Origin: a virus
IMG/VR virus record: IMGVR_UViG_3300045999_002623
Span: 1-20,396 of that record
Reading direction: 5' to 3' (one strand)
DNA: 20,396 nt
This document shows positions 18,768-20,396 of this stretch, piece after piece (the first letter of the stretch is position 1; the number at the start of each line of letters is the position of its first letter). The position numbers and the translations under genes are program-made. The notes below the pieces were generated by a model. That model worked only from the letters and a program-made list of their open reading frames with translations. It did no database searches and was not told the origin of the DNA.

Positions 18768-19120
18768 ACTACCGCACTCTCTTCGACATCCCCGAAACAA
18801 CGGCCCCAATCGCTCGCCACAGCGATCCAATCACAAGCCAGAAAGCCGCCGAACGAATCCAGCCAACAGTCACCGCCCGTCAACTGCAATGCTTGGAAGT
18901 TCTCCGCCAACACGGTCAGCCAATGACATCAAACGAACTGGCTGAAGCGTGCTGTGATCGGTTCTGCTCAGATCTCAAAGTTGATCCTGTGCAGTACGCA
19001 AAGAAGCTTGACAACTTCCGGAAGCGGGCTGACGAGATCAAGCGAAACGAAGACCTGTGCATTCGGCTGGATGCGGAGCGGGATGGCGGGCAGTTGTTTA
19101 AGGCAAAGGACGGCAAATGA
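18764..19120 (+). CDS. Winged-helix-like phage protein
   Basis: The 118-residue protein starts at GTG 18764 (GTGA overlap). It contains DPITSQKAAERI (21-32), a motif common in small phage proteins with a winged-helix domain, then TARQLQCLEVLRQHGQPMTS (37-56) and NELAEACCDRF, a plausible helix-turn-helix, and ends in a basic helical region. Regulation or replication-associated DNA binding is likely; the exact job is unknown. The stop overlaps the next gene as ATGA. Confidence 0.7.
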   Translation: MNYRTLFDIPETTAPIARHSDPITSQKAAERIQPTVTARQLQCLEVLRQHGQPMTSNELAEACCDRFCSDLKVDPVQYAKKLDNFRKRADEIKRNEDLCIRLDAERDGGQLFKAKDGK

Positions 19121-19398
19121 TTATTCCGCAAAGCAAGTCAAAGCCACCAGTCCCACATAAGGATTCGCGATTGACGCCGATTGTTTGCTTGGGAGTTATC
19201 AAGATTCGACGGTCAGGAGGCGGAGGGCGACCGATTTGGAAGTGCCGGTGTGAATGCGGAAACGTCATCCTGACAGCACGCCACCGAATCCAAAACGGTG
19301 AAACCAAGTCATGTGGATGCCTGCGAAAAGAAATGTCACGCGACGCGATCAAGCACGCTCAACAAGTTAGGAGAGACAAGTATGCCGCTATTAAATGA
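19117..19398 (+). CDS. Zinc-ribbon-like DNA-binding protein
   Basis: The 93-residue protein has C43, C45 and C47 (WKCRCECGN) and C66, C68 (KSCGCL), a zinc-binding layout that phage HNH- and AP2-type proteins carry as a separate DNA-contacting module. No HNH or AP2 catalytic part follows, so the protein is a stand-alone module or a remnant of a homing nuclease. Basic residues before and after it fit nucleic acid binding. ATG 19117 overlaps the previous stop (ATGA), and the gene overlaps the next one by 17 bases. Confidence 0.7.
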   Translation: MIIPQSKSKPPVPHKDSRLTPIVCLGVIKIRRSGGGGRPIWKCRCECGNVILTARHRIQNGETKSCGCLRKEMSRDAIKHAQQVRRDKYAAIK

Positions 19399-19528
19399 AA
19401 TCATCGCAACAGTGTTACTTATTGTTTTGGCGTGGTTTGCGGCTGGATCATCGCAACTCGCTGACGAGCGAAGCCAGATCAAGCGTGGGAACAAGTGGGT
19501 GCGGGACAACTACCCGCCAACATACTAA
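19382..19528 (+). CDS. Small single-span membrane protein
   Basis: The 48-residue protein starts at ATG 19382 with AGGAGA about 8 bases upstream, a strong ribosome binding site that decides the start. It has one membrane helix (IIATVLLIVLAWFAAGSS, about 7-24) followed by a basic/polar tail ending WVRDNYPPTY. It overlaps the zinc-ribbon-like gene by 17 bases in another frame. Possible roles are membrane modulation or superinfection exclusion; nothing in the sequence decides. Confidence 0.75.
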   Translation: MPLLNEIIATVLLIVLAWFAAGSSQLADERSQIKRGNKWVRDNYPPTY

Positions 19529-19692
19529 CCGGCGAGAGCAAGGGCTCACCGGATTAAATCGGAACGGGCAGTTCGTTTCTGTCCGGCCCGCTGTCAACGG
19601 CGGCGGGCGAATCTCCCTCAGAGCCTGCTGCATTGGAAAATGATTTTCAACGGCTGGCCCCCGCAAGCCAATGAAGGCGCGGCAGGCTCTGA
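19529..19692 (+). ncRNA. Highly structured non-coding region (possible leader RNA)
   Basis: Several helices can form here. CCGG...CCGG with one mismatch spans 19529-19552. GCCCG (19586-19590) can pair with CGGGC upstream (19565-19569) or CGGGC downstream (19604-19608), mutually exclusive choices. TCAGAGCCTGC (19618-19628) pairs with GCAGGCTCTGA (19682-19692), 11 bp, enclosing hairpins such as TTGGAAA-ATGA-TTTTCAA (19633-19650) and ATTGG/CCAAT. Together with the terminator 10 bases on, this looks like a leader or small RNA. Class unknown; no known riboswitch motif recognised. Confidence 0.5.
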
Positions 19693-19701
19693 TTTGTCAC
19701 T

Positions 19702-19766
19702 CCTGCGAACAGTCACCAAGGGTTCGGCGTTTCCAGCAGTCACGCCGAGACTGTTCGCAGGTTTTT
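19702..19766 (+). terminator. Very strong terminator in front of csrA-like gene
   Basis: CCTGCGAACAGTC (19702-19714) and GACTGTTCGCAGG (19749-19761) form a perfect 13-bp stem; inside it, TCGGCGT (19724-19730) pairs with ACGCCGA (19742-19748). Five Ts follow (19762-19766), then a further T/C-rich tract. The stem ends only 28 bases before the csrA ribosome binding site, so the csrA transcript would have to read through it. Confidence 0.85.
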
Positions 19767-19800
19767 CTCTCGTGTTTTTCTTTCTCTACGGAGGTGTGCC

Positions 19801-20079
19801 ATCTTAGTTTTAACTCGGAAGCTTGACGAAAAAATCATCTTCGACATTCCAGCATCGTCAGTGCCTCAGCAAATCACTCTGAACGTGAATGAGATTCGAG
19901 CTGACAAAGTAAGGCTCGGAATCATCGCTGACAGATCAATCACGATTGACCGCAAAGAGATTGCGGATTCGAAAGCAGTTCACGGAGTCTGGAAGAAGCC
20001 AGAGCGTCCGGAGATTTCATCCGTCGTACGAATCGGTGAACGACTTCCCGGCGAACTAATGCGGAGAAAACCGCAATGA
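19801..20079 (+). CDS. csrA: CsrA-like RNA-binding regulator with ATC start
   Basis: The frame from 19804 encodes LVLTRKLDEKIIF directly, the CsrA N-terminus without its initial Met, so the start codon would be ATC at 19801. GGAGG (19790-19794) lies 6 bases upstream, ideal spacing. Further CsrA features are ITLNVNEIRADKVRLGIIAD (25-44), matching the family's strand and R-x-G-I-x-A core, and ITIDRKEI with R51 at the position of the RNA-contacting Arg44 of E. coli CsrA. A DIPASSVPQQ loop adds about six residues over E. coli CsrA, and the tail (to 92 residues) is extended. The next in-frame conventional start, GTG 19861, would remove the first strand and R6. It should bind GGA-containing RNA hairpins and alter translation; its own ACGGAGG is a possible self-target. 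Confidence 0.85.
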   Translation: MLVLTRKLDEKIIFDIPASSVPQQITLNVNEIRADKVRLGIIADRSITIDRKEIADSKAVHGVWKKPERPEISSVVRIGERLPGELMRRKPQ

Positions 20080-20327
20080 CACGACGCAAGAAAGCCGGAA
20101 AGAAATCCAACAGGCTACACGCTCCAACAGGCCACAAGCCAATGACGCGAGATCCATCCTTGGAAGAGATCTGGGGCACTGAAACAACGATCGGGCTGGC
20201 GGAAATGATACGGATGGAACGGCCTGACTTGCCGCAGAACAAAGGGCTGCATCGGCCATCACAGATTCGTGAGTGTTCGACGCGAATGCTGCCGGGCGGC
20301 AGGGGCGTATTGAGGGGGCAGGGATGA
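20076..20327 (+). CDS. Small basic protein, unrecognised
   Basis: The 83-residue protein is not recognised. It opens with a basic stretch (MTRRKKAGKKSNRLHAPTGH), then DPSLEEIWGTETTIGLAEMI, a more ordered middle, and a polar C-terminus (RGVLRGQG). It lies between the CsrA-like and RuvC-like genes and overlaps both (ATGA at each end), so it may be a nucleic-acid-binding partner. Low-complexity ends limit confidence in any function. Confidence 0.65.
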   Translation: MTRRKKAGKKSNRLHAPTGHKPMTRDPSLEEIWGTETTIGLAEMIRMERPDLPQNKGLHRPSQIRECSTRMLPGGRGVLRGQG

Positions 20328-20396
20328 AACTACCAGCATGGATCGGAATTGATCCGGGAGCATCGGGAGCCATTGCAGTCGTATTTGGTTCGGGCA
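20324..20396 (+). CDS. RuvC-like Holliday junction resolvase, N-terminus (partial)
   Basis: The ATG overlaps the preceding stop (ATGA). The 24 visible residues begin MKLPAWIGIDPGASGAIAVV: GIDPGxSGA is the first-strand motif of RuvC-type RNase H-fold resolvases, with the aspartate as a catalytic metal ligand. Phages use such enzymes to resolve branched DNA before packaging. The gene runs off the window, so the other catalytic acids cannot be checked. Confidence 0.8.
   Translation, partial: MKLPAWIGIDPGASGAIAVVFGSG

Follow-up and report, generated by a model that had tools for sequence, protein, structure and literature searches.

Proteins of the CsrA/RsmA family are dimers that bind GGA-containing RNA. 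Natural AUC and AUU starts are very few in bacteria and their viruses. Non-standard start codons under IF3 control have been described for infC, which starts at ATT in E. coli and at ATC in Streptomyces, and for Streptomyces sigR, which starts at GTC (PMC5472188). HNH endonucleases have been found inside phage genes, with mobE in nrdA of phage Aeh1 and mobA in the topoisomerase gene of T4 (PMC2988022). In T4 gene 60, whose bypass has been described (PMC3014915), the 50-nt bypassed insert may have protected against endonuclease cleavage (PMC5009743). A near-cognate start codon as a work-around to an endonuclease insertion was not found described in the open-licence literature searched.

The locus analysed here lies on the IMG/VR phage contig IMGVR_UViG_3300045999_002623, the whole 20,396 bases of which are referred to as the window. 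This contig encodes a terminase and a portal protein according to profile matches, and its terminase shares about 33% identity with the nearest cultured terminases among the matches listed. It probably carries a functional phage csrA that starts at AUC 19801, with a Shine-Dalgarno (SD)-ATC arrangement that would be the scar of an HNH homing endonuclease, inserted and later lost.

The csrA start in the window

The features of the locus are as follows.

19702–19766, + strand: terminator-like hairpin and T-run just 5' of csrA, kept across the family, with compensatory changes
19787–19807, + strand: out-of-frame triplets TAC GGA GGT GTG CCA TCT TAG (YGGVPS*), counterpart of the overlap HGGVSF* in locus L378 and a putative remnant
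19790–19796, + strand: SD GGAGGTG, with GGAGG (19790–19794) at a 6-nt spacer from ATC; –13.3 kcal/mol with the anti-SD
19790–19808, + strand: 19-bp start module GGAGGTGTGCCATCTTAGT, with the same letters in locus L298, there 3' of an HNH endonuclease gene
19801–19803, + strand: ATC start codon, kept in 7/7 close contigs, with no alternative in-frame start
19801–20079, + strand: csrA-like gene of 92 codons, ATC start and TGA stop (20077–20079), with a PF02599 match and under purifying selection
19861–19863, + strand: GTG, codon 21 and first conventional in-frame start; the preceding codons vary silently only
20076–20327, + strand: next gene, in ATGA overlap with the csrA stop; L378 has a homologue after csrA

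The predicted protein matches the CsrA profile PF02599 from residue 2 and over profile positions 2–50 of 53, scoring 44.8 bits where the cut-off is 27. Its translation contains T5-R6-K7 and SITIDRKEI; R6 and the arginine of the VHRxEI-like motif are presumably the RNA-binding residues. No CsrA match to this protein was found among cultured phages. At the nucleotide level, positions 19790–19803 read GGAGG-TGTGCC-ATC and are followed directly by LVLTRKLDEKII. The preliminary description had placed the family N-terminus LVLTRK at 19804, behind ATC 19801 and with GGAGG at 6 nt, and these coordinates proved exact. It was equally right that GTG 19794 (10 codons) and GTG 19796 (3 codons, GTG CCA TCT TAG) both lie in other frames, and that GTG 19861 is the first conventional in-frame start, the use of which would drop the first strand and R6. 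After the preceding stop, no in-frame ATG, GTG or TTG occurs before codon 21. Gene finders restricted to ATG, GTG and TTG would therefore call this csrA 20 codons short, or miss the gene.

The SD of csrA is the strongest among the 27 window starts scored, the remaining 26 ranging between +0.7 and –8.3 kcal/mol. Among the scored leaders of the relatives L008–L022, GAAAGGA, at about –5.7 kcal/mol, is found where the ATC clade has GGAGGTG. The local fold at the csrA start is no stronger than that of shuffled sequences, which gives no sign of SD sequestration by local structure. An SD of this strength is at least as suggestive of compensation for a weak codon as of a start that is weak by design. 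Initiator tRNA would read AUC 19801 as fMet, and the near-perfect GGAGGUG at 6 nt would offset the weak AUC, giving a modest and probably IF3-sensitive output.

Conservation and selection at the ATC start

Scanning IMG/VR with the window csrA protein yielded 30 loci. In the six nearest (L002–L007), which lie on contigs with different metagenome IDs and differing upstream genes, the start invariably reads GGAGGTGTGCC-ATC. Among the relatives with 70% identity, L008 starts with ATG and L009 with GTG, and L010–L031 start with ATG. The alignment of related phages proposed in the preliminary description has thus been carried out, with ATC kept in 6/6 close relatives and ATG or GTG found in more distant ones. 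In the window clade, this conserved non-standard codon is the sole usable start of csrA.

Comparison with L005, the most diverged close relative, revealed 19 silent changes and one amino-acid change over the whole csrA (dN 0.005, dS 0.357, dN/dS about 0.014). Within codons 2–20, 5' of GTG 19861, three silent and no amino-acid changes were counted. Such a pattern of substitution would not be expected of a gene that lacks a usable start. A dead or mis-sequenced gene, the main alternative of the preliminary description in the form of a single-base disabling mutation, has in its favour that ATC is the least expected start codon in gene finding; it is nonetheless very unlikely, since seven contigs agree on ATC and the dN/dS ratio, together with the silent-only variation of codons 2–20, indicates purifying selection. 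On this sequence evidence, translation of the window csrA must begin near ATC.

A start elsewhere, either by frameshifting from GTG 19796 or at GTG 19861, appears quite improbable. In its favour, GTG 19796 and the SD share one short stretch, the mini-ORF opened by this GTG overlaps with the start of csrA, and codon 21 is indeed a GTG. Against this, no slippery heptamer occurs in the sequence, and a codon-21 start would lose the first strand and R6, while the silent-only changes before GTG 19861 argue against its use as the sole start. A frameshift or mini-ORF from GTG 19796 was rejected, as the ATT-starting alleles L302, L304 and L086 have no such GTG frame.

Near-cognate starts in other csrA lineages

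A further IMG/VR scan, with a pattern of SD, ATH and CsrA-like start in that order, recovered ATT- or ATC-starting csrA genes outside the window clade in L291–L294 (the same loci as L076/L078/L088/L093), L299 (L089), L298 (L087), L302 (L090), L304 (L094), L086, L082 and L074, the full context of which is L378. This sample of ATY alleles is small, with about 11 distinct csrA sequences and few independent lineages. In some of these genes a conventional start is possible, at a TTG in codon 2 (L082) or a GTG in codon 3 (L291-type, L302-type and L378); the window clade, L298 and L299 have no such alternative near ATY. The sequence GGAGGTGTGYC-ATY-TTA-GT is common to the window clade, L291–L294, L298, L299 and L378 despite widely differing proteins, and the window and L298 are identical across 19 bp. 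A search of IMG/VR for the exact 14-mer GGAGGTGTGCCATC was uninformative among the matches listed. A second viral scan, covering AGGA-type SDs and xNE/xDE proteins only, gave nothing beyond known loci, all of them endonuclease-plus.

Among 84,980 species, with one genome each, the first pattern identified real CsrA ORFs only in Adhaeretor mobilis and a Clostridiaceae MAG. The csrA of A. mobilis has ATA followed by an in-frame TTG at codon 2. Planctomycete chromosomes were consequently rejected as the home of ATH-start csrA, with 1/392 genomes positive and that copy carrying the codon-2 TTG; the genome of this planctomycete (G001) holds thirteen CsrA-family matches. In the Clostridiaceae MAG (L224 and L317, one genome), an ATA-start csrA lies two bases 3' of the stop of a fliW-like gene, with no other start nearby and no endonuclease. 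It represents either a near-cognate start that arose independently or an error confined to this MAG.

Endonuclease junctions at the csrA start

The group B loci, which encode closely related csrA proteins (six distant matches in cultured phages), include both ATG and ATY alleles. In L331–L336, the ORF directly 5' of the ATY csrA matches a phage HNH endonuclease (phrog_374, 5e-42) and has no Pfam match above the cut-off. It opens with sequence that belongs to csrA itself, the leader and initial codons cacGGAGGYtacag-ATG-YTN-GTG, after which the endonuclease follows. Its end reads TCA-TAA-GGAGGTGTGCC-ATY-TTA-GTN and runs on into csrA codon 4, so that a second, near-cognate csrA start lies 11 nt 3' of the endonuclease stop, behind a new SD. 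The uninterrupted alleles L295–L303 have ATG-CTT-GTN joined directly to codon 4. Comparison of these junctions places the insertion within the first csrA codons, with the endonuclease taking csrA's ATG. A group I intron was rejected for this site, as the endonuclease ORF fills the insert and the splice-site bases do not fit. All seven endonuclease-plus contigs have ATY, and the 31 uninterrupted relatives (L008–L030 and eight group B loci) have ATG or GTG. Furthermore, L302, L304 and L086 combine the native leader with ATT-TTA-GTG and lack the endonuclease, a pattern that recombination between the two SD regions, with deletion of the endonuclease, would be expected to leave. The csrA start is also broken at L305:2315-2405, where a group B csrA lacks its first codons after an upstream rearrangement.

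In L378, the HNH ORF is a different one; its end is AP2-like at E 1.7e-6, which does not reach the Pfam cut-off. The last codons of this ORF, GGA-GGT-GTG-TCA-TTT-TAG, double as the csrA SD and ATT-TTA-G. Over 79 bp each, L378 shares with the window the hairpin, here 5' of the endonuclease (83.5%), and the gene that comes next after csrA (78%). These shared features make L378 the counterpart of the window locus in endonuclease-plus form. A homing-endonuclease insertion with uninterrupted alleles in relatives is thereby found both for L331–L336, relative to L295–L303, and for L378. In the window itself no endonuclease gene lies directly 5' of csrA, and none of the 30 IMG/VR loci combines the csrA allele of the window with an endonuclease. 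The window leader gave no significant sign of further endonuclease remnants, its likeness to endonuclease 3' ends beyond the 19-bp module being no greater than that of shuffles (p 0.2–0.7).

Neighbourhood of csrA and cassette exchange

Equivalents of hairpin 19702–19766 occur in L005, L008–L023 and L388, in the last of these 5' of an endonuclease. Five of its 16 predicted pairs have changed on both sides with pairing kept. A consensus scan detected no promoter between this hairpin and csrA, and an Rfam search of 19300–20396 gave no match at E up to 1. A second strong hairpin (19617–19692, CAGAGCCTGCTG...CGGCAGGCTCTG) lies 5' of the first and likewise has no Rfam match. Two ORFs 5' of csrA, a zinc-ribbon ORF (19117–19398) matches the HNH endonuclease family phrog_374 at 2.5e-13, over only 50 of 617 profile positions. 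Compared with L010, the csrA body at 19771–20029 is a swapped cassette between flanks that are 90–97% identical on both sides, and the conserved csrA tail RIGERLPGELMRRK forms its right boundary.

Origin of the start module

The favoured origin can be laid out as a series of steps. An HNH homing endonuclease gene would have entered the csrA start, where it took over the native SD and ATG or pushed them aside. csrA would then have restarted at the SD and ATY at the 3' end of the endonuclease, likely by termination-reinitiation coupling while the endonuclease was present. Later loss of the endonuclease in the window lineage would have left csrA preceded by the SD-ATC module and, further 5', by the native hairpin.

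The earlier interpretation of ATC as the start is supported by its conservation and by purifying selection that extends to the codons before GTG 19861. Its second element, that such a start could serve to hold CsrA at a low level by way of IF3, fares less well. The occurrence of the ATY module at endonuclease junctions and apparent remnants points to another origin; low or IF3-dependent csrA expression may instead be a consequence. In its fuller form, the SD-ATY would be an older csrA leader, selected to be weak or IF3-dependent, as in infC, so that a dose-sensitive RNA-binding regulator stays low, with endonucleases merely landing beside it and the leader spreading through csrA cassette exchange. 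This is possible but rather doubtful. The position of the module outside the endonuclease ORF in L331–L336, the exchange of csrA bodies as cassettes among otherwise 90–97% identical phages, the ATA start of the Clostridiaceae MAG, which has no endonuclease, and the known IF3-controlled near-cognate starts of regulators (PMC5472188) speak for it. However, the ATY alleles of group B carry an endonuclease or an apparent scar while the uninterrupted alleles have ATG, and the SD of the ATC clade is the strongest rather than a weak one.

A bolder extension of the endonuclease origin, proposed here tentatively and on balance unlikely, is that the HNH endonuclease and SD-ATY together form a mobile start-codon cassette that takes the host ATG. 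ATY would take the place of ATG in the replacement start, since an intact ATG-YTN-GTN would stay open to cleavage. Endonuclease-free ATY alleles such as that of the window would then be homing-resistant survivors whose immunity comes at the price of a near-cognate start.

Altogether, the related alleles, with ATG, with ATT or ATC and an endonuclease, and with ATT or ATC alone, constitute a natural experiment on the replacement of a start codon in a gene that is kept. They make it testable whether a very strong SD alone suffices for translation of a phage regulator from AUC.

Comparison with known systems

The window protein resembles the CsrA/RsmA family (PF02599) in its core domain, LVLTRK start, R6 and DRKEI region, and its gene differs in being phage-borne, in its long conserved tail and in its ATC start. 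As in infC and sigR, a regulatory gene has a non-standard codon as its only usable start, and the known cases are IF3-sensitive (PMC5472188). Their codons serve autoregulation or dose control, whereas that of the window would mark a mobile-element junction and has a near-perfect SD. T4 mobA and gene 60 and Aeh1 mobE would offer a second parallel, in which a phage gene invaded by an HNH homing endonuclease still yields its product through an unusual arrangement. In csrA, the work-around consists of a new SD and a near-cognate start, in contrast to the ribosome bypass or split protein of T4 gene 60 and Aeh1 mobE. Unlike T4 mobA and Aeh1 mobE, the csrA arrangement recurs across several lineages and seems to outlast the endonuclease. 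The csrA alleles would thus provide a start-codon counterpart to T4 mobA and the gene 60 bypass.
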